From NCBI GenBank assembly GCA_021030905.1, contig JAGFMI010000012.1, positions 1,178,001 through 1,242,000 on the forward strand: DNA of 64,000 nucleotides, written 5' to 3'. Under the pieces are notes generated by a model. The model was not told where the DNA came from and ran no database searches. It saw only the letters and a program-made list of their open reading frames with translations. This DNA comes from Pyrenula massariospora (lineage: Eukaryota > Ascomycota > Eurotiomycetes > Pyrenulales > Pyrenulaceae). Position numbers and translations under genes: made by a program. This document shows, one piece after another, positions 2,053-35,311 of the stretch (the first letter of the stretch is position 1; each line of letters begins with the position of its first letter).

Positions 2053-5045
2053 TCATATCCTCCCGTGTCGCGCCTTGAAAATAGACACCTTATCGTCGTA
2101 GAACAAGATCTCTCGTAACTTGAAATGTTTGACATTTTTCGTGCTGTCTCCGGGGTAAAGCTCGTCATCATCCGTGTCACCGTGTCCAGCAGACGAAATT
2201 TCAGACTCGGTGTCGTCGTGAACATCTTGTTGGAAGGAGGTATTTACGCCGTCCTCGTCATCTTCGTCACTATCAAAATCAGAGCTGCCGGGATTGTTGG
2301 TGGTAGTAGTGGCATCGTAGCTTTTCGAACCAACTGGTAACTCAAGTATTTCAAAACATTTCGACTGTATGCCGAGGTAGCAGACCTCTAACTCTGGACG
2401 TAACGCAACAATGTCGAGGATCTGCATGGCGAATTCCCGTGAATTTGCGTGGACATGCTCGGCAAGGTAAGGAATGTACAGGGACCTAAGGTGTGTGATA
2501 TTGGGGAGCCGTTGCAAGAACAAATGCTGCGCACAAATGTTAATATCGAATGTAGAGAAGTTTATGATCGGAAAGAAACGTACCCAATCTTTGTATTCAA
2601 GGGCCATGCCGAGCTCACGCAGATTTGTCATTCGCCCACTAGTCACGTACGTCAGGACTTCTCTATTAAACATCCATTTCCTCCAGTGGTTGTTCGGTCC
2701 TGGTTCCCCATTCTCAAGCCTGTCCTCGCTGTCAATAAGCAGCTTTCTTAAGCTTCCTTTGTGTCGCCTGATTGCTCCCTTGTAGATTGCATCAACGGTA
2801 ACATTTGACTTGTAAGGACGGCCCTCTTGCAGGAACAACCATTCCAGACTGTCCGGTGCTAAAGTATCCCGTACAAATGCAATGAACGAGGACGAAACAC
2901 AGTCCGTCTGAAGCTTTTTGATATTGAGCGGATACTCATGAGCTAGGTATCCTTTTGAAGTCGGCGTTGAAGATTGACCAGACGACCCACGGTGTGATTT
3001 TGGCGTTGATCTTAGAGAGACTGAGGAGCGAGAGAACCCTTGAGGAGTGTATTTTCTTCTGAGTGCTTTCCACAGCTGTTCATGATGCTGACACCCAAGA
3101 ATGGTCAGGCTAGTCAGGACTGTCCAGTCAATGGCCTTTGACAATACAGGGATAGATAGCGGTACCCGCTCTAATTTGAAAATGTCCAGCCTCAACTTGT
3201 GATCATCCTTCAAGGGATACCGAGAGTTGTCTAATTGTGGCTGCTTCCGTGCATTCGAGGTTGACGGCCGATCTGCTAACTTTTTACCTCTCCCAGAACT
3301 CGGCTGTAATTTCACCGTCGGTGTAGCATCTGGAAACAAGGACTTGTCCATCGAAGCGGTACTTGAGTCAATCGCAGCCGTGATACCTTCTGTAGGCTTT
3401 TCCTCCGGAAGAATATCCTCGAGGTGATGATGTGAAAGCGTCGCAGTCAAGTCCTCCAATTTGGCCTCAGAGTCAAAGTCTTGAGATTCAGCGACAGTAA
3501 AAGGCACCTCGATGTGAGGGGACGATAAAGTTGCTGACATTTCGGGCTCAGCCTCATTCTCCATATCACCAAAATCGGTTGAAATTCCTGGCAAGACGTC
3601 GGCAAGGGGCGCTGTAGAAGAACCAGCCAATGCAGAAGCAGCAGCGGAAGCAGGGAAGTCGAAGATGCGACCAAAGAGTATTCCAAGGACTCCTCCAGGC
3701 CGAGACAGAGATCTTCCAGTAGATGCTCCTGTAGGAGCAGGATTCTTATCTTCTGGTAACCGAACCCAAGCATCGTACTGCGCATGCTGCGCTATCCCGA
3801 CTCTTATCTCCCGTAACCTGTCTTTCGACTTTTCCAAAAGTATACTCATTTCTTCGACATACGGGAGCTCATCGATGTCTAGAGAGCTTATACTCTTAAG
3901 AGGTGGTAGAATTGAGAAGGTGGGAAATTCGACTCTTGGATAAGGAGGGATGTGAAAGAGCGAGCCACTGCCCATACCTGGATTTATTGTCGAGGAGAGC
4001 ATGGCCGGTGTCATCAGAGTTGGGTTTGTCGATTGACCTGCAGGTGGAGGCGGGTTTTCAGAGTTGTCGTGCCACCGTACCCATACGCTTTCTAAGCTGC
4101 ACTCTCCTTCTTCCCGGTCGCCCAAGGATGCCAGAGCTAGCCAAATGTCTCGCAGAATACCCGTCGGCATATCCCAAACGAAAGTTTCTAGGTTACGCAT
4201 TCGAGCTACTGCGAGAGCCACCAAAGTACCCAGCATCTTACCTCCCTCTTTTGTGATCAGATACTCTTGGACCCAGTCCGAGGGACCATTTCCTAGGGAG
4301 AATTTCCTTGTATACTGTGCGAAATGATTTCCCCTCCTGATCTTCTTTTTCTTAGGCAATGTTTCCGGTCGCGAATGTGAGCACTGCTCAAGGCGGCCGC
4401 AGTTGCTGCATTTGTGGACTTGGAATTTAGGAAGGGTTGTCTTCGGCTCTCCGAAGACATCTTGATCCATGACGAGGGTCGCTAAGCCATACGTAAGAGC
4501 ATCGACACCAGTCCTGTTCTCACTCGAGGCATGTCCGTCCGGCCAAACAATATCGAACCGTGAGTAAATGTGAGGGATTGCAAGGGAATGGAGAGCAGAA
4601 TGGGTCAAAGCTAAAGAGGTTAGATCGTTGGTATGGGTAACCTATGTCTTGTCAGATTTCTCGTCTTTTCTCATGAGAAGAGTGCACAGACTTCTCGGAC
4701 GATTTCTTTCAGGACATCCATGGGTAGGTCAAGTAGTTGTAAAGGTCCCTTCTCTTCCTTCTTCTGCGTGACAGCAGCCCATTCTTGCTCCTTATCCTGA
4801 AGGAGCTTGGAGAGCACCTCTGCCGGTGCAACCGCCGTATCATGACATTGAGCATCGTCAGATGTGAGTTGATCGTGTTCAGCCATGTCCTCCCTCCGAC
4901 CACCAATCGCATGCGTATGGAGTGACTCTTGAGAGGACACGCTTTTAGTGTCATCAGAAAGTAAATCTTGCAGCCGTTCTTTCATTCTCTCATAGATCCG
5001 AACGTGAAAGGTGCTTGATACGCCGCTCGCAGCGCGGTGGACCAA
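2053..5045 (-). CDS. F-box protein with acidic tail (two exons)
   Basis: Exons 5045-4692 and 4641-2053 with a 50-bp intron (donor GTCTGT, branch CTGAC, acceptor TAG) give 980 aa. The intron splits the F-box: exon 1 ends LLDLPMDVLKEIVRE and exon 2 continues VTHTNDLTSLALTHSALH, then IPHIYSRFDIVW, a very typical fungal F-box. This junction also explains why exon 2 alone seems to start with a non-ATG codon. A small Cys cluster (C196, C199, C205, H207) follows the box. The middle is Ser/Pro-rich and probably disordered; the C-terminal third carries LRR-like hydrophobic segments and an acidic stretch (DSDEDDEDG). Predicted role: substrate adaptor of an SCF ubiquitin ligase; substrate unknown. The start at 5045 is the first ATG; M21 is an alternative. 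Confidence 0.85.
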
Positions 5046-6294: not shown

Positions 6295-8342
6295 CTAGCA
6301 TTTTAGCTGGATTCCCTTCCTAAGCTCGCTTGCTCTGATCTCAAACATGACCTGTACTCCCACAAAAAGTGCCGCACACGCTAATATGAAGAAACCCACT
6401 CCTTCCTTGGTTCCAACGATCCCCTTGATTAGCCCCTTCAAACCATCCAACCCAATAGCAAACCCTACCAAATTCGCAGTCATCATCATTAGAATATTGA
6501 AGACCGCGCCAATTCCGCAGAGAACCCGATACACGTCTGGTCGATCTTTCCACTTACGCTGAGGAAATGCGATAGTGGCCAGAACTTCTGGGAGGACGAA
6601 GAAGGTGATCATCCAGCCCCATATCAAAAGTCGGAGTTGGATATCGTGCCATATCGCCACAAAGCTAAACACCACAAGCATGTTGGTTGACGCCCTCGAT
6701 ATGCTAATGCCTCTGCCAAAGCCCCCGCCAAGTGGCACGAAAAGGTACCGCACTATCCAGCGATTATAGCTGCGATGCCAGTTACGCCAAAATCCGGATG
6801 TGGAATAATTGTTTGACATGCATCGAACCATGTTCTCGGGAGGATCGATGTCATCTAGAAGAGCCCAAAAGCGAAAAAATCGCCATGGAAGGAGCAGCTT
6901 CAGCCAGATAATTTGAAGATTGAAGTATGCTAGCATGCTGAGCTGGAAGGGTCCGTAGACGGACCAGTCCGGATTGGATTTTGCAATGGCGACCACGTAG
7001 ATGAAATGAAGAATTAATTCCATGCACAGTAGAGTTAGAAAGAATCTGACGCCATACAGTACGGTTCGGGATCGGCTAAGAGAAGGAGCGGGGTGGCGGT
7101 TCTGGGAGACGTAGTCATTGAATGTGACAATTGGACCAGCGAGATACAAGGGCGAGTAAAGAGTATAAGCAAGATAGTTGCGGAATGAGAAAGCTGACAG
7201 CGGTGCAGGGACAGAAACACGGTCGCGCTCAGAGAGTAATTCCGGATTTAGCTGCTTCTTCTTAGGGGAGTCAGCTTGCTCAAACCAAAAAATGGACTGA
7301 CTGACCTCGACGGGACTACCAGTTCGTTGGTCTAGAGCCCAATAAAAATCTAGGTTGAATGAAATAAGGCGCAGTATAGTGATTTTGAAGAGAACCTCCC
7401 ATCGCGGAATAATGCCGCCAATGTGATCCAGCTGCTCCGCAATGGAGATGACGCGAGGTGAGAACCAGAAGAATGGTTGAGCGAGACGTACAAATGGATA
7501 CCCATGGCCCAGCTCATTCGCAAATAAGATCGCAACGTTGAAAAGCCAAGTTACACTGGGAATGTGCGCCCTAGGCAGCTTTCTAGCAATACAAAAATTA
7601 ATGTACAGGATTAGAAGAATTTTCAGGGCCGATAAACCGTGAAGGGCTGTAATAAAGACTAACGCAAAGTACAGATCGAATGAAAGTCGTTGTTCGAAGC
7701 GTGAATCCCCAGATGACCGAGACTGCTGTGAGAGCAGGCCGCTATCGATTTTTTCTGATCCGTTTTGGTCTACAGCATCTCCATTGTTAACTGCGTATAG
7801 GTTGTAAAATTTTCTCATTAGAGGGTGCAGGACCAGGACTATTGCCATGTAAGGAATGTTGTCTCTGAAGCTGGCATATTGTGCATCTGAATTATCCTGA
7901 ACTTCTCTTAACTTAATGGACACAGCTCAGAGGTCGGTACACTCACGACTTTCCGGCTTGGAATCCAACCTTTCGACAGAAGGTCTTCGTAATTGCGAAA
8001 GTTGGGATGAGAAGCTGCGGAGAGTCAGATTTGTATTTCCAAAGCTCGGGGATTTGGTGACGAACACTGCGAAACTTCAACGACAGCCTTGAACATTAGG
8101 GGTACTGCCACAAGAAAGACCAGGGCGTAGAAGTAGAACTCCGGAGTCCTCCATCGAGATTGCGTAGCGCTTCCGAACGCTTCCCGGTCCCTGACGGATC
8201 TTGACGACTGAGAAGAACTTTGAACGCCGTTAAGGTTGGGCTGCTTGGAGGTCGCATGTAATGGAGTTGAAGATGAGGTGGTAAGCCGAGTGTCCAATGT
8301 GTCCAGGGAGTATAACCTCTGGAGAAGCTCGAGCGAGCCCAT
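6295..8342 (-). CDS. GUP1: MBOAT acyltransferase, glycerol uptake protein Gup1
   Basis: Multi-pass ER membrane O-acyltransferase of the Gup1/HHAT branch; in yeast Gup1 remodels GPI anchors by adding a long fatty acid, and its loss also affects glycerol uptake. Exons 8342-8066, 8014-7947 and 7896-6295 give 648 aa, the usual length. The introns are 51 and 50 bp; the first donor is GTTCGT. Exon 1 carries a cytosolic Ser-rich head, then RWRTPEFYFYALVFLVAVPL, the first membrane span. Exon 2 reads HPNFRNYEDLLSKGWIPSRK and exon 3 opens DNSDAQYASFRDNIPY, all strongly conserved. Catalytic MBOAT residues are visible: H489 in FWRNWHRSYNRWIVRY and H532 in VAIWHDIQLR. About ten hydrophobic spans follow one another in exon 3. 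An ATG inside intron 2 could mislead a start call. Confidence 0.95.
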
Positions 8343-9756
8343 TCTGGCGCTCTCGTATCAAGGTTCCATGAGCGTCATGTACAAGTGGCACTTGCAGGTC
8401 GACCTCTACTCAGACCTGACCAAGACTCCGAGAGCCAGGAGGCTGCTATCATGACCCAGTTCACCCTCAACGTGAGAGAATCATGGTCAGAGGATTTTAT
8501 GGCAATCAAGAATCGAGTCTGGCTTCCTAAGTTGGGCGAGCAAGTACAGTACAGACAAGATCCAGGAGAATGCGTTCAGCGTCAAGCCTCCGCAACCCGC
8601 TCGGGTCGGCCGGGCTTCCCTTGGCATCAATTGTCGCTAAGACCGGGGAGGTAAAGCCTAATCATGACCTCTCCTAGGTAAGGTGGTGATATCGAAGTCC
8701 AGGCAACTTCGCCTCAATAACATAGAAACAGATACCCCAAGGTTTAAGGAGTCTACTGTGAGGCGTTATGAGTCTGCATCAGAAGTCATTTTACATCTGA
8801 TTGACAGTATTGACATCCGTCCGGTGTGCTGAATACGCCACGAGTCCTAACACCAAAGGTATGGGCACGGGTAGCCCAGACCTTGATTTCAGCCCCTTGA
8901 CCTCAATAGTTTTCCGCACGCAATCTTCCTAGATTATGATCTGCACACTGCCAACTTGCTTCAATCCTCATTTTGACTTGAACCCAGACAGAGATCGCGT
9001 CAATGTGAAGGATGGTATGGGATCGGGACACCTTCAGGATCTCAACATCCAGTTAGTATGGCCCCCAAGTTTCAGCCGTCTGCAAGGCTGCGATTCTGCA
9101 AGGACCGTCACAATTCCCGCGTTCCCCAGACGCTGCCGCCAGTAATTGCGCGAAACTCCCAATCAAAGGCCTTCGCTTCCCTCCCCTCCTGCATTGTGAC
9201 CGGACTATTAGGTATTTTCCTTATCTTGATGCATGGTTAAGGAGGGTCTGAAAGCCGTTGTATGGGGGGACACTGCGGCGCAGTCTGCTAAACCAATGTC
9301 ACATTTGGTTCAACGGGGTTCGAGCAAGAGCGTCAATCCACAACAAGCATTACAGCTAAAGATTTGTGGCTCCCCCTTGATTGTCCTCTCAAACTAATTT
9401 TTGAGTGTCGCGAACCGCTCAAGGTATGTTTGGCAAGAACAGCCGCCCGTTGACCCGCTGACTGCCGCTTTGGTTTTCGCTATATATCTCCTTTATCACA
9501 CACTTTCCGTCCAATCTTGCTTTCTTTTCAAAGACCATACTTCCCTCACCGTCTATCGATTCGATGCTCCATCATTTCGCCCATTCATCTCAATTGTTAG
9601 GATACTTACGTCAACGACGTACGAACTGCCTGTGTTATATCTAGCATCCATTTGAAAAACGAAAAGCCTTAGCCTCGAAATAGACAGAGAAATTTACGCA
9701 CCGTACAAACTCAAATGATTCACTAGAAAAAGTAATAATCAGCTATTTCAGAAACT
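8343..9756. other. Divergent intergenic region, GUP1 / dynamin-like gene
   Basis: No gene recognised in 1.4 kb. The right end should hold the promoter and 5' leader of the dynamin-like gene, including a TATATAT at 9481-9487 and a pyrimidine-rich stretch after it. Short open frames resemble nothing known. Confidence 0.5.
9481..9487 (+). promoter_or_regulatory. Possible TATA box
   Basis: TATATAT about 270 bp upstream of the dynamin-like start codon, followed by a CT-rich stretch as often seen around fungal transcription starts. Inference from sequence only. Confidence 0.3.
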
Positions 9757-12700
9757 ATGGCACAAGAGCCGCAATTTGACCTACCTGCGATGCAAGAACT
9801 ACAAGGTGAGGAACACCGGAAGTTACTAGACGCTATCGACTCCCTCAGAGGGTACGGCCTGGGTGGCTTCGCAGATCTGCCCCAACTTATTGTATGTGGG
9901 GCAACAAGCTCTGGTAAGAGCTCGGTATTGGTTTGTGAACCCGATTGAAAGCAAAAATGGATCGGTGCGTGATGCTGACGAGAGACGCAGGAAGCATTAT
10001 CAGGGGTGCCATTCCCCAAAGATGGTCAGTACAAGCTATTTCGATGTCATTGCAGCTGCTAATTCATGTCGTAAAGCTCGAATTTGCACTCGTTTCGCCT
10101 CTGAGGTAGTCCTCCGCCGGGCACCACATCATACAATCTCTGTGTCCATCGTTCCGAGCCTTGAGAGGACAGAAACGGAAAGGCAGCAGTTGAAGAATTT
10201 TCAAAGGGGTCTCACCAGCTATGCAGACTTTCCGTCTGTAGTGGCGGACGCTCGGGTAGCCATGGGACTCTCCGATGAAGATGCTGACTTCGCACATGAT
10301 GTGCTTAAAGTAGAGGTGTTTGGGCCCGAGCAGCCTCAACTAACTCTAGTCGATCTCCCGGGGCTCATTCAAAGCAGCACCGATGCTCAAAAGCGTGACC
10401 AAGTTGAGACCGTAAGTAAAATTGTCACGAATTACATGCGAAATCCTCGAAGCATAATACTCGCAATTGTATCCGCAGCAGATCACTATCTCAACCAAGG
10501 TGTCTTAGCTGCTGCTCGTGACATCGATCGCAGAGGTGAAAGAACTCTGGGTATCATCACAAAACCTGATGTGTTGATCCCCCATTCTGATAGAGAGAGA
10601 CTCTTTTGGGAACTTGCGCGTAATAAACCGATTGAGCTCGAACTGGGTTGGCATATGGTGCGTAATACAGACATGGACAACCCTGATGAAGCTGGCCGTG
10701 CAAGCACCGATGAACGCCAACGGATAGAAGATGTCTTTTTCAAGGAAAGGATGTTTAAAGCTGATCCTAGCGTCGGATTAGGCGTCGGCATACCCAACTT
10801 GCGAAGTCGCTTAAGTAAATTACTATTTGCGCAGGTCCGAGATTCAATACATCCTTTGCTCAAGGAGATCGAGCGAGGTATTCGAAAATGCAAATTGGAG
10901 CTCGATAAGCTTGGCGAGGAAAGGTTAACGGCCGAATCACAGCGCAAGTATCTCAGCAATCTCAGCATCCGATTCCAACAACTATGTCGAGATGGCGTTC
11001 GTGGTGACTATGGGGACGAGTTTTTCCGCGCCTCTGAGAATCCATCAACGCGACTTTGTTCTGTGCTACGGAATAGTCACGACCGCTTCACTCAGGACCT
11101 AAAGGTCAAAGGTGGTAAATGGAATATTCCGCATGACTCAGAAGAAGACCAAGAGACTCACGGGATAGCCCTGCAAGCGGCTTTAGAGGTCTTAAAGGAG
11201 AACAGGGGCCGAGAGGTAAGATTCTGTGCTTCTTTTGAATTGACTAGTCTTCCGAGATGCTAACCGGAGAAGTTACCTGGTCTACCAAATCCAGATGTCG
11301 TTCAAAGGCTCTTCGAAAAGAACAGCGCCCCCTGGCGAGAAATGGCGAGAGACCACATTCGCGAATGTCGGCATGCTATACAATCGTTTGTCCAAGAGAT
11401 ATTAAATGCAATAGCAGACCATGACATCAGCGAAAAGCTACAGTCTCATTACTTGGACCCTATATTCAAAGCCCAACTTGATAACGCTCACTCCGAGCTT
11501 GAGAAATTGATTTCGGTACACAAGAGGCCCCCACTTACCACAAACTCAAGATTCTTAGCGAAGATTCGAGATTTTGAAGGGAGAAGGACTCGAAATGAAA
11601 TAGCAGATACGCTGCAAGCCCAATACGATGCTCGAAGCCAACGGCGACCCGACGAGGTCATCAACACTATAAGAAACTTTAACGCCCCTTCACATGCAGA
11701 GCCTGACATGGCCGCTGCAGAGGATGCGTTCGATACTATGTTAGCTTATTACGATGTGTGTTCATTCTTTGAAATCTTAATCAGATGCTAACAATTTGCA
11801 AGATTGCCTTGGATCTCTTCATAGACAATGTTCCAAATCTAGCAATATGGTCTCCGATGGCTTGTGAACTAGAGACCACACTTACTCCTGGAAAAGTTTT
11901 TGACATGAGCGAAGCATCGCTGGCTGCTATTGCCCGAGACTCACCGAACGTGACCGAACGTCGACAGAATTTAAGAAAGAAATTAGACATTTTGACGAAA
12001 GGTCGGGATGAGTGTGAGCAGCAGATATCAAAGTCGGGGCTGGCCCGTAGGTGTCCTGTTCAAGTCTACATTTTAGAGTTGAAAATACTGACAACCAACG
12101 GAAGGTCTGACCCGAGGGGACATTGTAGCGTCGACTCAACGCGATGATACCCACAATACCCAAAATAGAGAAACCGAAGTGGCATCTCGCCGCGTACGAC
12201 GGTCACCACAGGCAAATTCTCCAAAGGCAGACAATAAACTCTCGAAAAACGTATCAGCAACAGTATCTCCAAGCCCTGGTCGCTCAGAAACTCCTCCAAC
12301 GTTCACTTTGCTTCCGACCGCAAAGGCTCCCGGGGTTAGCCTTGCAGCGGGCAACTCAGATCTTACACAGACGTCGCAAGCGCCACACAAGCTGCAATCT
12401 GCGTCTGAACAATCACAATCTGGGCAAGGAGCAACTATAGGTGGCTTTGGACAGTCACTGTTTGGGTCTGGAGAAGGCGGATCGATCGGACAGCCTACAA
12501 GCAGGCTCGAAAATGCTACTGCTATGCTGTCTAGGCAGTCGGTAGATAATCTTCAAAGCTCCACGCGTGGATTGTCCGGAACGTCGACAGACAGACCTAA
12601 AGAGTCTGGAGGCGTATTGTTCGGAACGTTGACAGACAGACCTAAAGAGTCTACGGGAGGATTGTTTGGACGGTCTACTGGTGATCTCGGAAAGTCTACC

Positions 12701-13634
12701 GGCGTTTTTGGACAGTTTTCAGGTGGACTTGGAGCGTACTCAGGTGAACTTGGAGCGTCTTCAGGTGGACTTGGAGCATCTTCAGGTGGACTTGGAGCGT
12801 CTTCCAGCGTTTTCGGACAAAAGCAAGCAACTAGCTTGTTTGGCCAGCCTACAAAAGAGACTCAAAAACCTTTCGATCAGCCTAGACGCAGTGGATTTAG
12901 TTTTGGAGCGCCGGAAGCTAGCTCTGGAGAGTTGCAGCCGCAGCCTGCGCCATCTCCATCTGCCAAACAATCACAGCCACAGATTTCTCAACAGACCGGC
13001 TTTGGAACCGGCTCTGGAACCTCCTTGGAGCCCGCCTTTAGCTTCAATCCACCTCATGCCAAACAGTGAGTGGCTTCTTGGCAGAACCTCGCTCGCCGGG
13101 TTGTTGCTTCCAGAAATTAAAGAATCTAACACGCATCATTCTGGCAGCATATTGGCTAGCTCTAACAGCTTTGTTGGTCCGAAGAATGGTACATTTTCGC
13201 CTCCATTCTCTCCATACATCGAATACGATGACCGCTGTAAGGAAACAGCGCACTTCCACAGTATCTCCGCGCAACCTGCTTATCAAGCTTATTCGCATGA
13301 AGAGTTACGCTTCGCAGACTATGAAAAGTATCTGTTATTGGTGGAAGTTTTTCGAAAATTATCCGATAATCAAGGAAGTTGAGCATGATAATGGTCCCTC
13401 TCGATGATACTGGATACCAATACAGGTAGTGGACGCTCTTACGTCGAGAGACACGCAAGTACGGCAGCAGCGGCCAGCCGCAGGGTTGGGTCCATGTGTA
13501 ACTACTTCGATATTTCCTTTCTTCTCGAGTATTGCTTCCTAATGCGTGGATGCATGAGTTACTTTGCACTAGTCAATGACCAATATGATGGCCACGCCAT
13601 GACATATTCCATCACAAGACCGTCACCTACCTGA
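9757..13634 (+). CDS. Dynamin/Mx-like GTPase with FG-repeat C-terminal tail
   Basis: Eight exons: 9757-9930, 9991-10024, 10077-11215, 11273-11755, 11803-12046, 12105-13065, 13148-13327, 13430-13634, all phase-consistent, 1139 aa. Dynamin G domain: G1 GATSSGKSS (48-56), switch I CTRFASEV, G3 DLPG (162-165), G4 TKPD (231-234). The stalk follows, and a GED-type segment ends near residue 690. Intron 5 (donor GTAGGT, branch ACTGAC) then leads in frame into exon 6, a Ser/Gly-rich tail with nine FG dipeptides (GLFG, VFGQ, SLFGQ types). Exon 7 has FHSISAQPAYQAYSHEELRF, like the ITAMKEYESKSLEELRLEDY segment of Nup98/Nup116. Dynamins self-assemble and remodel membranes or bind large assemblies; the FG tail suggests nuclear-pore or condensate contact (inference). 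The last junction and the stop are less sure: the alternative without the final intron stops at 13382. Confidence 0.8.
12578..12667 (+). repeat. In-frame 45-bp tandem repeat, two copies
   Basis: Two 45-bp units (12578-12622 and 12623-12667) inside exon 6 of the dynamin-like gene encode 15-residue repeats of the form GTxTDRPKES-GG-LF. They are nearly identical, so the duplication is probably recent. Confidence 0.85.
12722..12805 (+). repeat. In-frame 21-bp tandem repeat, four copies
   Basis: Four 21-bp units encode GGLGAYS, GELGASS, GGLGASS, GGLGASS in the FG tail of the dynamin-like protein. Only a few base differences separate them, pointing to slippage or recombination and likely length variation between strains. 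Confidence 0.9.
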
Positions 13635-14532: not shown

Positions 14533-17292
14533 TCAAATCTCCCCACATATCTTCCCTACAAAACCAACCAATCCTCTCGCTGCTCCTCCATTTGGAGCTC
14601 CACCACCATCGTCGACACCGCTGCCAATAGACCTTGGTCTTGGACTTCCGTCTCCGGCTATGGCAGTAGTTGCTGCGGCGGCAGTAGCAGCCGAACCTCC
14701 AATAGCGGAAGACGTCGTCGAAGGCATGATCAAGACCGTCTCCCCAGCTGTACAGCATTCTACGGAGACAAGGAACTCGAAGGAGATCTTGACCCGTTTC
14801 TCGTCGTTCCGACCTTTAGTCGCTCTAGTGCCTGTTCGTCCTGATTCCCCGCCATCACGAGGGCGTAAGGGTGGTTCGTCCTCCTCCTGTGCATCGAATG
14901 CAAAGAGCGTGTCTTCATCGTCACGATGTTCCTCATGCATGTTGATCTGATCCTCACCCTCGTACATTTCCTCATTGTCCATGTCCCCTCTCAAGACGCT
15001 CACAGCACTCACTTTTACCGCCGCCCTCACACTACCAAGGTACGTCAGTGCGTGACCGCCAAGAATTAGTGGCGGCGAGTCTGGCGCCTCGAACGCTGAT
15101 GCAGGAAACAGGGCAGAAAAGGACGTGCATATTGGCAACGGCTCGGAAGTGAGTACCATGCCTTTGCGAGCTTTAGCTAGCAGAGACGATGGGATCGTGT
15201 CGGGCACTACGTCGATACCTATCGTACCAACTTGTCCTGACAGCAGTGAATGGACTGGTAGTCGGAGATTCCGTAGGGAAAGCACAATAACGGGCTGGAA
15301 AAATGGATCACGCGAAGGGCTTTGGCTACAATTCTCGGAATCGTGGTCAGAACGAAACGGGCCGAGGAGCAAGGTCTGTCCGATTGAGAGCGCACCCTTC
15401 GAGAGTTGACCGCAAAGGACGATACCTGAATGCGAAGAAGTCGAAATAGCAGAGCTAGAGATCGTGGTTGTGGTGGCAGGGACGGGCTCTCCAGAATAAA
15501 CTTTAGACGGTGGCATCGAGAAGACCTCATCGATGTTGAAGAGTGCTTTTGCTAACGGCACGTTGGCCGGCGCATTTCCTTGAAGAATTGGGGTTGGAAT
15601 GGGGATGGCATGGAGGAGAGCATGAAGCTCGCTGATGCCTGCACCTGTGGTGGCGCTAGAGAAGAGAATAGGGACGTGGGTCAAAGCTGAAAAGTCGGGA
15701 GCAGATAATAGGCGAGAAATCTCTGATATGTCGTCGGGCTTAATACGCTGCAATCCTTGTAGAGCTTCGTCCGACTTTTGGGGGGAATTAAGAGATAGGA
15801 CTATAGGCTTTCTGCCTTCGTCTTTGAGTGCAGAGAGCATCCTTCCTAGCGTCTGCTTGAGGCCGAGTTTTGTAGCTATGTCAATTTTGGTGATAACGAC
15901 GATAATTTGGAGCTTTAATTTGAGACAAAGGTCCAGATATCTCAAAGAAAGCGTGTCATGATCGTCAATGTCATCGGCAGATACACAGAGCGCGACCCAG
16001 TGAGGTTTCCAACTCATGAGAGTGCGAATAGTGGATTTGGAGAAGCGCGGCATACCCGGAGAGTCGCACATGAATACAAGGCGTCCCTTTCCGGTTGTGA
16101 GACTATGAATGTCGTTCCACGACGAGATGTCTCCTGTCGCGTAATTGACGATGGATGGATGGCTAGAGGAACGGCCATCTTCAAGCCTGCCATAGCCGAT
16201 GAGCTCTTGCGCCACTGAGCTAGTGATTCCAGAAGCAATTTCATGACGATGCCTCAGCAAGCCGAGCCGGGTTTTTCCACGGCCATTATCTAAAGTACCG
16301 GTGGTTAGTGTACCCAGTAACGATGATTTGCCTGAGCCTGATGCGCCTGTCAGCGAGACGCGCAGCTGTTCGGTGATAGATTGCGCTTCTTCCCCCATGG
16401 GATGCATATTTTTGTCTGGTGATTGTGAGGACGGTGAGAAGCCGAAGGAGTCGCCGGTTGACCGAGCCTCCTTTAACTCCAAGTCAGGGCGAACGATAGC
16501 TTCGGCGACCCAAAGCTTAGCAGAGTCGGAAGTGTGACTTTCAGAATCCGCACTTGAGCTCTTAGCGGCCTTAGTTAGCTTACATTCTCCAACCACAACC
16601 TTTCGCAAAACTTCAACAATACACCCGAGACTTGCGGCCATCGCTCTCAAATTCACAAGGCTTTCCTCCAATTCATCATAAGTAAGCCCTAGGAAGACAC
16701 CATCATCTGAGACTCCGATCTCATACAAGGCTCCTTGACTTTCCTCGAGTCCCGGTAATAGCCTGGCAGGCATGCTCGGTGACCCTAGCTTTGGCGTAGC
16801 TTCTGGCAACAAAGGGAGGACGAGGTCCCCGGGTGATGATGAATGAAACGGTGAAGACTGCTGCAACCTCCACAGAAGTTGCGTAGTGAGTTGTTCCAGC
16901 CGATGCTGACGTGTCTGATGTGAAGGGCCAGGTGTAGGTTTCAAGGCAGTAAGCTGAGCACTTTGCCGAGAATTTGCTCCACTAGATAGTCTTGTCTTCG
17001 AATGTTGTGAGCCAGACAGCAGGTGCCCAGTAGTCGATGTGGTGAACGAGCGTCTCGGTCTAAGTAACAGATGCAATTTGTACTCTACAGGACCCTCTTG
17101 CGGCTCTGGTTCTAGCCTCGAAATACCGAGGTCATTGATATGGAGAGCCATTAAATTGGTATCCGTACCACTGATAGCTCCACCAGGACCACGGGATTCA
17201 TGACGCCCGGACTGAGGAGTCACGCTTCCAGGAGTAGACCATGGTGATGAAACCCGAGGAGGGTTCGGATCGTAAGTGAAAACAGATGCCAT
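14533..17292 (-). CDS. GTPBP1/GTPBP2-family translational GTPase
   Basis: Single exon, 919 aa. The family is EF-Tu-like GTPases (GTPBP1/2) linked in animals to mRNA turnover and ribosome rescue in the cytosol. The N-terminal ~300 residues are low complexity. The G domain shows G1 TGASGSGKSSLLGTL, a switch region GITSSVAQELIGYG, G3 as CDSPG (other family members have a DLAG-type form here) and G4 VVITKID. EF-Tu domains 2 and 3 follow: GIVLCGQLSKGALSIGQTLL with LLGPF, then RLPVHSLLSGQVGTIGI and KARKGMVLTSE. A ~75-residue acidic insert (MYEGEDQINMHEEHRDDEDT) interrupts the last domain before VKISFEFLVSVECCTAGETV. The tail is Ala/Gly-rich. No intron is needed. The start at 17292 gives a plausible disordered head. 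Confidence 0.9.
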   Translation of the reverse strand: MASVFTYDPNPPRVSSPWSTPGSVTPQSGRHESRGPGGAISGTDTNLMALHINDLGISRLEPEPQEGPVEYKLHLLLRPRRSFTTSTTGHLLSGSQHSKTRLSSGANSRQSAQLTALKPTPGPSHQTRQHRLEQLTTQLLWRLQQSSPFHSSSPGDLVLPLLPEATPKLGSPSMPARLLPGLEESQGALYEIGVSDDGVFLGLTYDELEESLVNLRAMAASLGCIVEVLRKVVVGECKLTKAAKSSSADSESHTSDSAKLWVAEAIVRPDLELKEARSTGDSFGFSPSSQSPDKNMHPMGEEAQSITEQLRVSLTGASGSGKSSLLGTLTTGTLDNGRGKTRLGLLRHRHEIASGITSSVAQELIGYGRLEDGRSSSHPSIVNYATGDISSWNDIHSLTTGKGRLVFMCDSPGMPRFSKSTIRTLMSWKPHWVALCVSADDIDDHDTLSLRYLDLCLKLKLQIIVVITKIDIATKLGLKQTLGRMLSALKDEGRKPIVLSLNSPQKSDEALQGLQRIKPDDISEISRLLSAPDFSALTHVPILFSSATTGAGISELHALLHAIPIPTPILQGNAPANVPLAKALFNIDEVFSMPPSKVYSGEPVPATTTTISSSAISTSSHSGIVLCGQLSKGALSIGQTLLLGPFRSDHDSENCSQSPSRDPFFQPVIVLSLRNLRLPVHSLLSGQVGTIGIDVVPDTIPSSLLAKARKGMVLTSEPLPICTSFSALFPASAFEAPDSPPLILGGHALTYLGSVRAAVKVSAVSVLRGDMDNEEMYEGEDQINMHEEHRDDEDTLFAFDAQEEDEPPLRPRDGGESGRTGTRATKGRNDEKRVKISFEFLVSVECCTAGETVLIMPSTTSSAIGGSAATAAAATTAIAGDGSPRPRSIGSGVDDGGGAPNGGAARGLVGFVGKICGEI

Positions 17293-20200
17293 ATTTACCG
17301 AACTGTTCGTATATCAACACAGAGCTCATACATGCCACCTTCGAATTGATATTGATAACCTTGATAAAGAGCGTGTGTTGGTGTGAGAATGGTGGATGCG
17401 GAAAAGGTCAGTCAGTAGCTGAATCATGGCGTTGTGGGTGAAGGGGCGACGTCGGTGGCGGAGAGCGCTCCTGTCAGGGCCGCAACTGCAGGTAGACCAA
17501 AGCTTATTTCGACGTTGTAGAAAGAATAATTTCAGGCATAATGGAGAAAGCGATGAAAGTCTAGCAACACACAAATTTTGACCTACTTTGTCTCGATCAT
17601 CGTGGTGTTGAGTCAAGCGCAGAGCCCCATTGCCAAGATGCGGAACTGAGAAGATTTGGAGCTATGCCTACATCAGTTAGATCGCTATCTCAGGACCTTT
17701 TCTCTTCTTCAGAGCAGCCGCATTACACCTGTTGTGCACAGATAAATTGAGAGGAAACCTGCTTCGCAGATGCGCCTTGTAAATAAATTTCTCAGCTGTG
17801 TGTCTCGTCCAACTCTACGGCATGAGACTAGATGAGAAGTATGGGATAGTTCATTTTTCTTATTGGCAACGAGCATCACTTGGTATAGCAATGACTTTGA
17901 ATGGAAATCTTATGCGCAACCTTCTCCTACGAAGTCCAGCGTCGGGGAAATGTGTACTCACCGCTTCTCGAAAGCACTATGGGGTGAGCGTCGCTATGTT
18001 CCCGAGAGCACAGATATCAGTGTTACCTTAATCTCGGAATCGGCGACCTCGCGTATTTATCAAATCATGGCTTCGAAACACAAGACGGCGCTATTGCAGC
18101 AGGAGACCCTGAATGATGTGAGGCATCAGACTAACTTTCCTCGATCTGCGTCTTTCGAGGATGGTGGCGTGCGGAAGCGACGTTGGTTACCTCTATCCCG
18201 ACGACTGCGCGCTTGGAAAAGTACGTGCTAGGTAGCCAATTCTGTATTTAGCAATTGGTCATTTACGACGCCAACAAAATCCACAGAGAGCGGAATAAGC
18301 GTAAAAATTATGCTTTGCGATTGGCCATTTCGTTTTCTCTTGCGACAGGTCTAAGGGGTAAGCTAAACTCTACTTCCGCCTTGCGCACTGGCCATCAACG
18401 GGCGGAAAACTTTGGGCTGTACTTACACCATACCTTATTGAGAGGAAGCAAACGAATTGACAGGTATCTTCCCGCGCGGGCACCGGTATCGCCGCTCGAT
18501 CGTCATGCACATAGAAGACACGCTAAGAAATAGAAGTTGCTACTAGTCCTGTGCGGTCATGACTCGCCTCCCATAGGATTCACATTTCACGTAACTGATA
18601 GAACATCATGTTAGACCACGTCTCTAATTTCTCTCCCATCTGCACCTTGTCGGCGCGTTCATGGAGGAATGCTCGGGTCAAACGCGCAAAAATGAGGCCG
18701 GTCATGTCTATATGTGGCAGATCCCAAGGTGTAGAGGGTTGTTCGTTTGACTATGTGTTGTAGAACCATGCATACGTAACTTGCCTGTTCTTTTACCATT
18801 AAAGGACGGCCGGTATAGTGGAATTTGCTCGGCAACCGGACTCTGAATCGGGTTTCCTTAGTTCATGAGATTCGCAAAAGTCATGAAACCGGATGTCGAT
18901 TGAGAAAGAAATTGCGCAGAGCCTACATCATTTCGGTTAACAACATGATCATTTCAGCGATTGCAGCTTGCTAGATGGATAGATCTGTGGTGGTGTCTCC
19001 GGTCACATTGTAATTCACAAGGTAATGGCACAAACAGTAATTTATCAGAAAGACCCCGAGACGCCGTCGACGTTCATCGTTTCGACTCGGCCCATGCAAA
19101 CTGTGTCCCGACACCCCGAATCTCACATGGACTGGTCCTGGAGCATTGCCCATCTTCATCGGCGGCCAGCACTCAGGGGAGCCTATCGAATTTTGCCATT
19201 TCAGGAAGCGAGGCGCTATTTTCGCTTTCACAACCCTTGGGCAAGCTGACGGCCACTTCCGAATGACTCGAGAGACGTCTGAAAACGCTAACATGTATCG
19301 AGAGCCAAGATAGTGGCCGGCAAGTACCTACCGATTATTGTTTGTAGACTAGAGGCTCACGAGCTCACAAGCAGACCGAAAGGGATTGCTGCGCGAGATT
19401 GACGATTGGGGCTGAGAACGGCTTGGGGGCGAGCTTATAGTAACTGGCTGCACTGTTTAGACGCGCAGGTGAGCTGATTCAGGTCAGGCAGAATCAGATC
19501 TGGTGACTTCATGCTCGGCCGTAGAGGATGAGTGTCTCCGAAGCGTGGGACGGAAATAATTTTCTAGGCTAGAAACCAGCCGAATGCGTGACAATGTGAG
19601 GTCTAGTCGATGGTGATGCCATTTGGCTTAGGCACCGCAGACATGGCCAAGATTTCTCGAAATCGGGAACCACTATGACTGGTGGATTCTTCCAAGATCG
19701 GAGGATTAAGAAAGTCAATGCTCCATCAACGTCCGTTCACGTGTGATGGTATTGATAGAACTATCAGAGTCATGAAGAGGTAGTTAGCCCTGCTACGAAA
19801 GTACAGTCCAGAAGTTCCAGGGGCGTTTGGGGGGAAGAGGGGCAGCAGAGGGCTGTTGGCGGGCGGTGGGCTCGGTAGCAGCTGCCCCCATTCCCCCACT
19901 CCGGCCCCCAAAGCAACCCCTGAACAGTAGCTTTAACCTGGTCACCTTTGCCCAGGAGATCCCTAGACGAGTCATGATTGCGATGGGGCTGCCGGTAGCC
20001 ATTCGCCGACCCTCCGCCCAGAAAGAAAAGCCTGTTGCATATACAGTGGCTTAAGCAGTAGTGTACCCAACCCTCCCACAACCTCCCCTCCTGCCTCCAT
20101 CGTCATTCGTAGAAATCCACTGCTTTAACATGACCCCTCTTTCCAAAATCAACCACCCCGGTAACCGGATAACTCCCCCAGGCTCCACCCTCTTAGTCAC

Positions 20201-20656
20201 ACAATTGCTGCACGTTGTCGTCTAACCTAGTCACAACTGGTCCCCTTAGCATATCCACACAACGTGCCAGAGGTCCATCAGTTGGACTCCTCCACTGTTA
20301 CCGTCGACCCTCTAGGTCCAACCCCCAAAGCAATGATTTTGTCAAGCCTGTTATTCGCTAAAAACTATATCCCGTCGCGGTTAACGCCATGGTCGTCCGA
20401 CTCCAGATTCTTCCATCTCTTGCACCGCCCGGTCTAGTACTAGATAGCCGGAGGGTTGCCTGTCGACTAGTCAAACGGCCGATTACCCTATCTGGGATAC
20501 TAGAGACTTGCATATCTTTCAACCTGCTGCCATATCTGAGACACATGTTCGTTCACCACCGTTCGGTTCATTGACAATATAAGCCTGGTCCAAACTACAT
20601 ACCTTGTTGGGCACAACCAATTCTCACCTTTTGACTAGCAGTGCTCACCACCAAGA
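17293..20656. other. Gene-poor intergenic region, 3.4 kb
   Basis: No gene recognised. The left end is the promoter of the GTPase gene and the right end that of the zinc-cluster gene, with AATATAAG near 20575 as a possible TATA element. A tRNA-Gln-like remnant lies near 18806-18855, and an 8-bp inverted repeat GGGGCAGC / GCTGCCCC at 19839-19846 and 19881-19888 sits in a G/C-run-rich patch. Small open frames at 17863-18231 and 18255-18533 are unrecognised. Confidence 0.5.
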
Positions 20657-22582
20657 ATGGTTGGCATACCAGGAAAATCGGGCGGTTGCCACACTTGTCG
20701 ACAACGCAAAGTAAGGTGCGACCTTCAGAAGCCAGAATGCAACCGCTGTCTGGTACGTAAAGTCAAGTGTGGCGGATACAATGTCAGTCCAATATTCGTC
20801 AACCGAGATCCAGACAACATTACTACATCTTGCAGTCAATTACTGCATAAAGCTGTCACCGGATCATCTTTGAAAGCAGCCAAGAAGCAACAGCCGCGAG
20901 TTCGCGCGGACCACCGTGTCGTCAAGAGGAATCAAGATGTTAAACAGTCGCCGGACTCGCACACCGGACAGCAGATATCGTCATCAACATCTCCAGACAT
21001 CCAGGGACCTGCAGAACACAGACATGAAGGCAGAGACTTCTCACAGTCCTCGCTTTTGTATCCTGAGGAACCCATCAGAAGATCTACCTCTCAACCAATT
21101 CTAGCATCACACAGCTCTCAAAAGACATTCGGTGCGTGCGACGCATTGATGGCTCAGATCCTTCCGTATCCAATTCGGCTCAGCGTCGAGCAGAAGAATC
21201 TAGTCGAAGATTTCCTTTTCCATACGTTGCCCGTCCACCGTTTCTTCAACAGAGCGAATTCTAATTGGACCTACATCATGCCCTACGTGGAGAGTCCCAG
21301 CACTCCCAATGTCTACGGCGCCTTCATGGCATTAGCAGCCATCAAAGTTGGCCATGTCTGCCGCAATTTTTCACTACTGGAAATGGGCCATGCGTATTAC
21401 GCCGAGTCTCTGGCAAGTTTATCGGGGGCCCTGAGTCAATCACCTGGCTACAGTCTCGATATCTTCATTACCATGTACCTACTCTCCCAATACGAACTTT
21501 ACGAATGCCCAATGGATGCCGCACTCAAAGGACCATGGTTGACTCATTTCAACGGTCTTACGAAACTTGTGGAGATTGCTGGACCGGATCGCTTCACGGA
21601 AGGGGTTGAACACAACATTTTCATTGATGTAAGACTAGCTGCTGTAAGTAAGCATCTCTCCTCGCATCGGCGAGTTGCTGACCATTTTCCCTAGATTAAT
21701 CTTGCGTTGGCACAACGCAAGTCTACGTTCCTTGCAGACCCAAATTGGTCAACAAGGCCATTTTCATCAAAATACCGGGTCAAATCCGGCCTGCAACAGC
21801 TCCTTGACTACATGGCCACAATTTCCTGCAAGCTAGAAGAAGCTGATCGCCTTCACACCTTGACTTGTCAACAAGACTTCCAATACTATAAATTGAAATC
21901 GCTCCGACTAGAATGCATTTCCTTGATCGGCCTGTTAGACAACTGGAACGAAGAATATTTAGACCAGAGTCATGGCCCTCTTTACCAGCCAAGAACTTCA
22001 ACAATAGACCGGGACAGTGATGACGAGTCCCTCATGTTTCCAGTACAGTTCGTCTTTTCAGAGCCACTGACTGCACTAAACCTGTTGTTATTCTGGAGTG
22101 CACAATTAATATTGTATATTACCATCGAAGAGCTTGAATTTGACCTTCGATTATGTCAAACAAGCAGACAAAGCAGTATCGAGACGTCTCGAACAGGCTC
22201 ACCGCCAGTTTCTTATACCCGTCCGGTTGAAGAATTCAAGCCGAATACAATAGCTCATTGCCTTTATTTGGCTGATTGCATTGCTCAATCTACCGAATAC
22301 ATGACTCACGATGACCTGCGGACTGTTGGTCCGAGAGTGGCTATTTGGCCACTATGCTGGGCTCAGCAAATGTACGATAGGGTAGAAGGATGTGTACAAA
22401 AAAGTATATGGTGTCAAGGAATCATCTCGGCGGTCAATTTCCACGGTTATCCATTCCTCGACTACAAATCAAAATTATACGACGAAGTAGTCCCTCGACG
22501 ACTTCCAATCCGGTACCAGACCTCTATACCGCTGCAGACAAATTTCTGTCGGTTAGGTTTTCAGAGGAAACAAAGGATCTAA
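20657..22582 (+). CDS. Zn2Cys6 fungal transcription factor
   Basis: Exons 20657-21643 and 21695-22582 with a 51-bp intron (donor GTAAGT, branch GCTGAC, acceptor TAG) give 624 aa. The zinc cluster lies at residues 11-38: CHTC, then RQRKVRC, C in KPEC, NRC and LVRKVKC, i.e. C-x2-C-x6-C-x6-C-x2-C-x6-C, preceded by the usual SGGCHTC. A Ser-rich linker leads to a C-terminal regulatory region (from about residue 165) typical of the SPT21/PRO1-like fungal-specific domain, with EDFLFHTLPVHRFF and AFMALAAIKVGHV. Role: DNA-binding regulator; target genes unknown. It lies alone between two gene-poor gaps, so no cluster assignment is possible. The extreme C-terminus may contain another intron. Confidence 0.9.
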
Positions 22583-31440: not shown

Positions 31441-34400
31441 TTACCCGTATCGTTCTTGTTCTGGGCGCCAATCATCTCCCATTTTGCCTATCACTCTTCT
31501 TGCTAAAGGTGATTTCACGATCCACATCCGCGTTACATGGCCTCTGACCCTCCTTATCTGCAGCGGTCCGCTCGGGGGATAAAATGTAATTGAGTCATTC
31601 AATCGATGGACGTTGGCAAAAGGAGAATTGCTATAGCCTCGCCCCCTAAGCGCTTGGACTGGTGGAAGATTGGCGTAATCCTTGGATTTTATGGGGATGG
31701 GAAAGCCTTTAGGAATGGCAGATATTGGTCGATGGCGAGGGATGCTGTGGTCATGACGGTGGGAAGCTGAATGGTCGAGCTTTGGTGAGCAACTACTATT
31801 GTTGAGCGGTTGGAGCACCGGACAATTATCAGAAGCCGAGTGTGACAATACATTTTGTAGAGTCGACAAATTGTAAATCGCGTCGTGCTCGGGTAGCCCC
31901 TCGCTTGGACGCAAAACGGTTGGCGGTGTGCTAGCTTTGGCGACCGATATTTCAGGCGTGGGAATTGCGTCGTTTGGGGAGGTGCGGGTTTCCGTTCGAG
32001 CGCTAGATTCCAGCGCGAAATCGTCCATAAGTCCGCCCTTTAAAGGCTGGTTATGAGTCTTGCATGTATCTCGTACTTCAAGATCTGTCCCTTTGTTACC
32101 TACGACTTTCGCCACAGCCCCGTCGGCGACACATTTAGCGTGTTTTGATTCTGCATGCTGTACAAACGGGCAGGTTGACACCGTGTTAGGGACTTTCTTG
32201 AGAGTTACTTCCGAAAATGCGGTCGGTACTGTGCTTCGTGCTTTTTGACTTTGTACAGTCTCTGGAATACTTAACGGCACTTCTAAGCGTGATTCACCCT
32301 TGCCAGCCTTGCGATCCGACCCGTCTTGATGGTATATAGCTTCCTGATCTGAGTATTTCAAGATCCTTTTCAGTTTTGGTATCGCTCGATCGTAGCCCTC
32401 TCCTTTCAGCACCGCCTTCTGCTGATATTTTTCTCCTCCATAGAGCGTGTCTTTTCGCATCATTCCTTCCTTGATCATATCCTCCAAAGTTTCTTTAGAC
32501 TGCATCACATCAACTCGAGCTTCGGCTCCATGGACAATGTGCTTTGTAAGCCTGTTGCGCATCACGCTATCGCTCGGTAAAAGCGCCTCAGCCTCCTCAT
32601 CGAAGCTTTGGAAGAGACTGTCGACGACGAAATGGTCGTCCGTCATCGACTCGCCGTCCACTCTTTGAAAATCGAGCAAGAATTCAAGCTCGCCAAATCT
32701 ATCCACCCTCTGAACGATCCATGGAAATTTTTGAGATAGCTTCATCAGAAATATTTTGGCTCGCTCCTCGCCTTCTATATTCCTGATCTTGCCCGTGATC
32801 CATGCCAGCTGCTTAATAGAACATCCGGCTTCGCCGTAGCGCTCCAATGCGATATACCAAAGCCATCGTGTGATCGAAGGCCGGACAGGGGCCCCATAGT
32901 ATTCTAGCATCTTGATGCTTTGCTGAACTCGTTGGAAAGCTTGCCGCGGACTAAGCTGTGGCGTAATTGCGAAGGCAGCCACCATAGCTTCCATTGAGAG
33001 CAGAACGGTGAGAGGATTGAGAGATGATGCAAAGATTTTGTCGCGAATTAAGGATGGTGGAAGTGGTAACCCAGCACTGGCTAAACTATGCTGTGGTAGA
33101 CTCACCTTGGTCAAGGAAGCGTGAACAGTCTCCTCTGAGATGCTTCCCGTATGCCAATTGGAACCATGAACATAATATCGGCTCTTGCTCAGGGCTATCT
33201 TGAAATAAACATTATACTTCAACATTCGCAAAATCGCGATCGACGCATTTTCATCTTCGAGAATCATCGATAGAGCAAGACTGAGAAACTTCCCGTAGCG
33301 ATCATTTACGCTTTCGGACATTAATCGTAGGAGCAAAGGCATGTTCTCCTGCAAGAAATACCAGACCTCTATGTCAGCAAAAGCAAAGACCGGCCGCTGT
33401 GAGATAATATCTGTGACCTTGCCCCTAAAGAACCCGGCTGGGTCATGTAATGACGCAAAGCGAAAGGAGTCGCCAAACCGAGCAAGTTGCCTAGAACCTT
33501 TCATCGCCTGGCCTGTCGAACCTTCAATGCTCTCCTGGAAGAAGGAGAAGACAGAATGCGCATCCCCGGCAGGCAGTGACATGATGAGTAAGCTTTCGAG
33601 AGCTTTTTCACATGCTGTTTGATTTTGACCCAAGAGAGGTACAAGCATGGCGCACAAGGTCTTAGACACTGTTTGTAAGGCGCTTGGGTTCCTCTCCAGC
33701 AGAAGGTGTATGACCCAAAGCCGCAAAAGCACTGTTCGTGTATGAGTGACATTGAAAAGACGGCATCGGAGACCAAAAGTTTCCAACCAATTCTGCTCTC
33801 TGGCAAGGTCGCTGTCACTAATCGACATTTGCAAGATTCGCTCTCTCCATTCTTCTAGAAGCTCAGGTTGCTCCTGCATCAATGAAGCGCTAGAAGATAT
33901 CCACAATGTCATATCTAGAACAGCCCGAAGAACTGAGCCGTCATTCCAAGCAGTAAATAGCTCAAGGTTGTGATCGATGAAGGTGTCGTAACTGCCCTGC
34001 AGTTGAACCATATACTGGCTTCGAAGATGCTCTTTCAAGGCCGCGGTAAGATCCCCAGAAGACACGCTCTGAAAGACTGAATCCAGCAGAGCACGGTCAA
34101 AATATTGAAGGGGGGCGCGAAGCAGTCGGTACACAAGATATTTTCCGTGGGTAACTCCGAGATCCGTAAAGTTCATAATGGGGCATGCCTGTAACGCTCT
34201 CACAAAACGAAATGTCCAGTGATAAAACTCAGCTGTGTTACCCAGTTGGGAATTACCCATCCTGACGTACTGCAACAAACGCAGAATAGATGTGAATTCT
34301 GGTGGACTAACGATTCCTCGTTCAACCGCAAGCAGAATTGCTTCCAGGATAAAGGTACGCCTCTCACCCGCGTCATTATCTCTAAGATGATTCATGATAG

Positions 34401-35311
34401 CTTGCCATTTGACAAAGCGTCGAGGTGAGAGAGCTGGGTCAAAAGTTAATCGTAGTATATCATCTGTTGACCACTCATCAGAGAGCGCGTGCCTCCAAAT
34501 CGAGCGGGCGTAGGGAGTTTGTGTGAAAGAGACGTCCATTAATTTCAAAAGCTTGACTAATTGTTCCACATTGTGCACACAATTCAATCTCTCGGTGAAC
34601 AGAGTATACGTCTCGCTAGGCTCGGGATGAGGGCGGTCTTCTGCAGCATTTTCAAGAACGGCTCCAGACTTCTCTTCGAACAAAACATGCTGCTCGATGA
34701 GGTTGGTGGAGGCGGGACAGGGAGAGGGAGGTGGAGGTGGAGGCTGGTGGTATTGAAACCATCCTAAAACTGAAAGGACTACTACCGTGAGTAAGAAACG
34801 ATTCAACGAGGATAATAAACGAACATGATTTTGGATCCCCTTTCACCGACTCTGTTTGTATGCTAGTTTTCTCTTTTGGGCGCTGGGACACGTCCAATAT
34901 GCTTGCTACATCAGCCATCGTTGCTGGATTGTTCCACTGTGCCAAACTTGTATTTCTCCTTCTAGCCGCTCGCCGTCTCGATTCAAGAGGACCAGGAACA
35001 GCGCTGGCATAGCGACGTGGTACTGATTTATTGGAGGGAGCGAAGATAGTCTTGTTACGGAAAGTGACGGTGGAGCTGGTTGATCTGGGACTGATAACAT
35101 TGTTCCTCTTATTGGCGACAAAGAAGGGCACTGGGTTTTCATTTTCAGTGGGCAGCGCACCAATGTGACACTGCGACAATGGCCGAACAGTGTGCAAGAA
35201 GCGCATAAATGTTCTATCGAGAAGCTCGTCGGAAATCCAGATAGGGTGTTGTTGGCTCGCGGGAGCTGAGGTCGCAAAGGCACAGCCAAAAGGTCTGCGA
35301 CACGAAGGCAT
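31441..35311 (-). CDS. Large alpha-helical protein, unrecognised, possibly mitochondrial
   Basis: The main exon is open from the acceptor near 34692 to a stop at 31441 (its own first ATG is at 34806). A 155-codon upstream exon, 35311-34847, is in a different frame; joining at donor GTGAAA (34846) to an acceptor before 34692 or 34689 gives about 1238 aa. The upstream exon is rich in Arg, Ser and Ala with few acids near its start (MPSCRRPFGCAFATSAPASQ), as mitochondrial presequences are. The body (residues ~160-850) is rich in regularly spaced Leu/Trp/Arg helices (e.g. RSIWRHALSDEWSTDDILRL), suggesting an alpha-solenoid of PPR-like kind, though I see no clean 35-residue repeat. The C-terminal 250 residues are low complexity. 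No catalytic motif was recognised. The gene is certain, the 5' exon likely, the function unknown. Confidence 0.65.

Follow-up and report, generated by a model that had tools for sequence, protein, structure and literature searches.

A probable fusion of an Mx-like GTPase with FG repeats and a Nup98-type GLEBS segment in the fungus Pyrenula massariospora

A single gene that probably joins a GTPase of the dynamin family to a tail resembling part of the nucleoporin Nup98 has been located in the fungus Pyrenula massariospora, in a stretch of 64,000 nucleotides from contig JAGFMI010000012.1 (positions 1,178,001 to 1,242,000). This whole stretch is referred to as the window, and all positions are those of the window. 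The GTPase appears to be Mx-like, of the MxF type, and the tail carries FG repeats and a likely GLEBS segment. On balance we favor, with moderate confidence, a protein that docks on Gle2/Rae1 through its Nup98-like tail and is held at nuclear pores or in Gle2 complexes. Docking at pores or on Gle2 is suggested by the placement of FG repeats and a GLEBS behind an Mx-like GTPase, and the link to pores is strengthened by the fact that the GLEBS of Nup98 is the binding site for Gle2/Rae1. The GLEBS would most likely dock the protein on Gle2/Rae1, the FG repeats would provide additional weak interactions with transport receptors or FG nucleoporins, and the GTPase would thereby be kept at nuclear pores or with Gle2 complexes. 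The stalks of dynamin-family proteins assemble as rings or filaments, so many tails could be presented together, and their binding could become avid and controlled by GTP. There, such an assembly might remodel the pore or, by analogy with MxB, gate or trap large particles such as the nucleoprotein of mycoviruses or transposons. Pore docking is the best reading that the sequence suggests, and a role in defence, argued from analogy, is possible but unproven.

The GTPase part contains two elements of a member of the dynamin superfamily, a GTPase domain (Pfam Dynamin_N, 7e-30) with the strings GATSSGKSS, DLPGL and TKPD, which we take to be the G1/P-loop, G3 and G4 motifs, and a middle or stalk region (Dynamin_M, 9.6e-18). 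Among all chains of the PDB, the top matches were two Mx2 chains (1e-32 and 3e-32; 116.7 and 115.1 bits), presumably of the human protein, followed by Mx1 chains; Dynamin-1-like protein (79.6 bits) and dynamin-1 (62.1 bits) stood further down. The original prediction, made from the letters of the DNA, had called the enzyme Mx-like, and that assignment is supported by these best matches, which are best hits and not a tree. It had also placed a GED region directly before the junction with the tail. GED was the best-ranked of the two Pfam families listed for a query covering residues of about 545–692, and the assignment is weak (13.0 bits against a cut-off of 21.4). GED was absent from the Pfam lists for exon 5 alone and for the full query of 692 residues, residues 450–692 had no PDB match up to E 10, and no PH family was among the Pfam matches of the protein.

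The strongest rival explanation accepts the docking and drops the defence. A pore-docked housekeeping GTPase, with a task in remodelling or assembly of nuclear pores or of the nuclear envelope, is somewhat unlikely, with an appreciable chance of being correct. Dynamins commonly remodel membranes, and a Pfam scan of 20 neighboring open frames gave no pointer to defence. However, the closest solved relatives are Mx proteins, and the turnover of MxF genes in fungi has been read as unlike that of housekeeping genes in the available text of PMC11789081. A more specific and rather improbable proposal is a self-docking pore guard, in which a GTPase of the Mx lineage would have gained the FG repeats and GLEBS of Nup98 by fusion, giving fungi a separate and covalent route from Mx to the pore through Gle2/Rae1 by which mycoviral or transposon nucleoprotein would be screened.

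The tail begins with exon 6, of which 58% of the 320 residues are S, T, G, Q, N or P. Nine FG dipeptides in a tail of about 320 residues had been reported in the original prediction, and both counts were reproduced. Nine FG dipeptides were reached in one of 20,000 shuffles of the exon 6 residues (shuffle mean 2.1); the 691 residues of the dynamin part contain a single FG. Exon 6 also holds a direct duplication of 45 nt (12571–12660, 84% identical) that lies in frame and repeats the string TDRPKES, which suggests that the tail may have grown by short tandem duplication.

The more specific Nup98 feature lies in exon 7. With E values up to 1 allowed, the spliced tail matched a single Pfam family, Nup98_GLEBS (PF21240), which scored 14.0 bits for the whole tail, 16.4 bits for the protein of exons 7–8 and 17.4 bits when exon 7 is read on to 13382. 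This model is independent of the tail. A profile built from two Nup98 GLEBS sequences (PDB 9hcj and 3mmy, which we take to be from Dictyostelium and human, respectively) gave 22.2 bits in the stop-to-stop frame 12633–13382 and 19.7 bits as a domain in the spliced protein; this profile is partly circular, since the 9hcj GLEBS was found by searching with the tail and 3mmy was found via 9hcj. With the same profile, the next best of 1,677 pieces of the window scored 9.8 bits; the maximum was 12.2 bits in 150 simulated windows and 6.4 bits in 20,000 shuffled tails. The core shares 14 of 24 residues with 9hcj and 10 of 24 with 3mmy, and those two share 11 of 24 with each other; the core is therefore as close to the two Nup98 GLEBS sequences as they are to each other. 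In the PDB, the Nup98-Nup96 entry 9hcj was found by the tail at E 0.49. The GLEBS piece of 9hcj in turn finds the Nup98 of 3mmy only at E 0.14, which indicates that true GLEBS sequences are this divergent. A Glu-Glu pair is present in the segment; such a pair is required for the binding of the GLEBS of Neurospora BuGZ to Bub3, according to the available part of PMC9203020. A search of NCBIfam with two tail frames and exon 3 gave one match, at chance level. Thus the residue pattern of solved Nup98 GLEBS sequences is found above chance, and the segment, which had been described beforehand as resembling one in Nup98/Nup116, can be named more sharply as a likely GLEBS of Nup98 type, that is, a putative docking motif for Gle2/Rae1.

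Several observations weigh against a pore-docking Mx protein. In the PDB search, a chain named 'putative mitochondrial dynamin protein' (97.6 bits), presumably Mgm1, and Vps1 (92.2 bits) are not far under the 116.7 bits of Mx2. The stretch from the first to the last FG has 4.8 FG per 100 residues, 7.0% acidic and 8.0% basic residues (15% charged), and exon 6 matched no Pfam family at E up to 1, and so no FG-nucleoporin family. The available text of PMC4283134 gives a median of 9 FG per 100 residues for 666 Nup98 FG domains; among ten tabulated ones, acidic residues reach 0.5% and basic residues 2.3% at the highest (about 2.5% charged at most). The dense, charge-poor FG domain of Nup98-type nucleoporins is therefore not seen here, the FG density being about half and the charge far greater. 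The GLEBS scores of up to 17.4 bits lie under the curated cut-off of 27 for PF21240, whereas the Nup98 GLEBS of 9hcj scores 30.6, and an unrelated family, UPF0122 (E 0.06), also matches exon 7 read through to 13382. In the PDB, matches of exon 8 to beta-glucosidases outrank the Nup98 match; they were taken as chance, their best E being 0.24. The autoproteolytic or anchor domain of Nup98 was unmatched in the Pfam scans of the protein. By its composition the tail is an FG-bearing low-complexity region and no typical cohesive Nup98 domain. The idea that the GTPase brings its own FG phase, as put forward in the original prediction, is weakened by this density and charge. Docking by GLEBS is better supported than an FG phase of its own.

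These observations raise the alternative that the tail is a fast-drifting disordered linker whose FG dipeptides and likeness to GLEBS serve no function at pores. The low FG density, the charged residues, the short internal duplication and the GLEBS score under the Pfam cut-off are in its favor. We regard it as unlikely, as the FG dipeptides exceed those of the shuffles, both Nup98 features occur in one tail and the GLEBS profile score stands well clear of the best simulated window (22.2 against 12.2 bits in 150 windows). Another alternative is a GLEBS that serves a mitotic or checkpoint role, through Bub3 or through Gle2 in mitosis, rather than a role at the pore. Bub1, BubR1 and BuGZ bind Bub3 through GLEBS domains (available part of PMC9203020), and GLEBS has been described as ancestral and retained in Bub1-like proteins in the text available of PMC5204127. 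This is quite improbable, since the matching model is that of the Nup98 type and the segment is accompanied by FG repeats.

The joining of the GTPase to the FG and GLEBS tail depends on the gene model, in which removal of seven introns of 47–102 nt leaves the exons in a single open frame, 1139 codons long before its stop. The three downstream junctions of the original prediction (12046/12105, 13065/13148 and 13327/13430) were recovered to the base, with phases that keep the frame open. A CTRAY motif is present in six of the seven introns, with 8–17 nt between motif and intron end; introns 5 and 6 are among the six, and the strong donor and branch point claimed for intron 5 were found again. 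A strict donor-branch-acceptor pattern, which simulation yields at 0.14 per kb of strand, is found four times in the gene. Three of these occurrences are introns 4, 5 and 6, and the fourth is a span of 99 nt across intron 1 that begins at another donor. Counts for the window as a whole are 13 on the forward strand and 8 on the reverse strand (simulated mean 8.7). Without removal of intron 6 the frame stops immediately. The two further introns of the original prediction are both in phase, and the signals of intron 6 are good; intron 7 is doubtful, with no branch-point motif. Without intron 7 as modelled, the protein ends in ...ADYEK or ...KLSDNQGS, so the last 65 or so residues are doubtful. 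The GLEBS core lies inside exon 7, upstream of intron 7, and is therefore independent of this doubt. Exon 6 sits in a stop-free run of 325 codons, and the longest run in 20 simulated windows of 64 kb was 272. Codon usage supports nothing here, since a test of it failed to tell coding frames from the rest, even within the dynamin part.

A start for the FG part of its own, which the original prediction had named as evidence that would speak against the fusion, was looked for; the sole Met codon of exon 6 (12524) comes too late, after the first two FG dipeptides. This position and the gap of 58 nt between exons 5 and 6 make the FG part hard to build as a separate gene. The least probable of the rivals is that the model merges two adjacent genes, one for a plain Mx-like GTPase with its end near 12147 and another for the FG repeats and GLEBS, for although the GTPase frame simply stops at 12147 if intron 5 is retained and the model is drawn from DNA, the gap carries intron signals in the correct phase, the Met follows 419 nt of open frame and the open run is long. 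The fusion is likely real, splicing in vivo being presumed from these signals. The features of the gene and of its neighbors are given in Table 1.

Table 1. Positions in the window of the predicted features of the GTPase gene and of neighboring open frames
Feature	Positions	Strand	Remarks
Whole gene model	9757..13634	+	8 exons, 1139 aa; ATG at 9757
Dynamin-superfamily part, exons 1-5, aa 1-691	9757..12046	+	GTPase domain and stalk; Pfam and PDB matches
Presumed G1/P-loop GATSSGKSS, aa 48-56	9898..9924	+	located in sequence
Presumed G3 DLPGL, aa 162-166	10352..10366	+	located in sequence
Presumed G4 TKPD, aa 231-234	10559..10570	+	located in sequence
GED-like stalk end, exon 5	11803..12046	+	Pfam GED, under cut-off (scores in text)
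Intron 5, GTPase to FG tail	12047..12104	+	GTAGGT donor; CTGAC 12 nt before intron end; AAG acceptor; next exon phase 1
Exon 6, S/G/T/Q/A/P-rich tail with nine FG	12105..13065	+	disorder judged from composition
Basic cluster RRVRR, just after GTPase part	12188..12202	+	putative nuclear-import signal (assumed)
FG-bearing stretch, first to last FG, aa 806-992	12446..13006	+	4.8 FG per 100 residues
Intron 6, FG tail to GLEBS exon	13066..13147	+	GTGAGT donor; CTAAC 17 nt before intron end; CAG acceptor
Putative GLEBS core FHSISAQPAYQAYSHEELRFADYE, aa 1048-1071	13254..13325	+	wholly within exon 7
Intron 7, uncertain	13328..13429	+	GTATCT donor; TAG acceptor; no CTRAY branch point
Exon 8, uncertain	13430..13634	+	NGRSYV..., open to stop
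862-codon open frame	2053-4641	-	no Pfam match at E 0.001
MBOAT O-acyltransferase, upstream of GTPase gene	6295-7926	-	Pfam
Large single-frame GTPase with GTP_EFTU domain, downstream	14533-17313	-	Pfam
Fungal Zn2-Cys6 domain	20639-21694		Pfam
1133-codon open frame	31441-34842	-	no Pfam match at E 0.001
RPE65-family protein, then alternative oxidase split over two open frames	59940-63886	+	Pfam

Of 32 open frames with 170 codons or more in the surroundings, 20 were scanned with Pfam (E 0.001). The neighbors look like ordinary fungal genes, and no mark of a defence cluster was found among the 20 frames. The downstream GTPase with the GTP_EFTU domain is presumably GTPBP1/2-like, and the RPE65-family protein is taken to be a carotenoid oxygenase.

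Relatives of the GTPase have been sought in collections of viruses, bacteria and archaea, where absence is uninformative on the spread of the gene in fungi. No relative turned up in viral contigs for protein queries of exon 3 or of a 92-residue piece of the G domain, nor in genome contigs of bacteria and archaea for exon 3. A query of 70 residues likewise found no relative in viral contigs and had at least 13 loci in genome contigs. Three of these loci (L001, L008 and L010) were rejected as relatives because each encodes a secretion-type ATPase that shares the P-loop region; by reading of their sequence, the products are bacterial ATPases of CpaF/TadA-like type. The P-loop string CGATSSGK is common to these three ATPases and to the GTPase described here (near 9518–10747).

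Among the papers listed by searches of the open-access literature, none reports a fungal dynamin or Mx protein with FG repeats or a GLEBS, as far as titles and the first lines of abstracts show. Letter strings resembling the GLEBS had no match in the literature, and GLEBS and dynamin together led, by title, to a review of brain ageing and a review of rhabdoviruses. It would not be surprising, from general knowledge, if the same architecture were present and undescribed in other filamentous fungi. A role at septal pores was considered and set aside; in the available text of PMC10023807, the disordered regions at these pores avoid lysine and glycine in comparison with FG nucleoporins, and dynamin is unmentioned.

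Langley and colleagues have described MxF1 and MxF2, which are Mx-related dynamins of fungi, as the protein presented here appears to be; they treat the two as uncharacterized orthologues of animal Mx, of which a species has from zero to five copies (available text of PMC11789081). In the main text of that article no word starts with 'nucleopor' or 'Nup', and in two passages the nuclear pore is mentioned for animal Mx only. Human MxB (MX2) is also an Mx-like GTPase, and Mx2 is the best PDB match of the fungal protein. The available text of PMC6264145 reports that MX2 is placed at the nuclear envelope via a triple-arginine motif at its N-terminus, which binds to nucleoporins and TNPO1, and that of PMC6101944 that knockdown of several nucleoporins, including NUP98, mislocalizes human MX2. 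Unlike MX2, with its N-terminal arginine motif, the fungal protein would carry FG repeats and a GLEBS fused at its C-terminus; the likeness, as an analogy, would be one of destination and not of means. Should the pore guard be true, the partnership of Mx and the pore, which human MxB achieves with a short N-terminal motif, would have had a separate origin in fungi. For the questions of why MxB acts at pores and what Mx-like GTPases do outside animals, a fungal Mx-like protein that carries a pore-docking motif would let the pore link be tested directly in organisms with easy genetics, and would suggest that pore association recurs in the Mx lineage.

In Nup98, an FG domain and a GLEBS that binds Gle2/Rae1 stand in one chain (PMC4283134, available text). 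Yeast Nup116 likewise has FG repeats together with a GLEBS, and the fungal protein would resemble both in this pairing. It differs from them in that a GTPase replaces the autoproteolytic anchor domain, the GLEBS stands after the FG stretch and not within it, and the FG dipeptides are fewer and the charged residues more frequent. BuGZ and Bub1/BubR1 likewise carry a GLEBS on a protein other than Nup98, with the key Glu-Glu pair in BuGZ; in contrast to the binding to Gle2/Rae1 proposed here, they bind Bub3, and FG repeats are unmentioned for them in the available part of PMC9203020. If the docking is true, the Mx-like GTPase of P. massariospora would join Nup98, Bub1/BubR1 and BuGZ among the known carriers of GLEBS.

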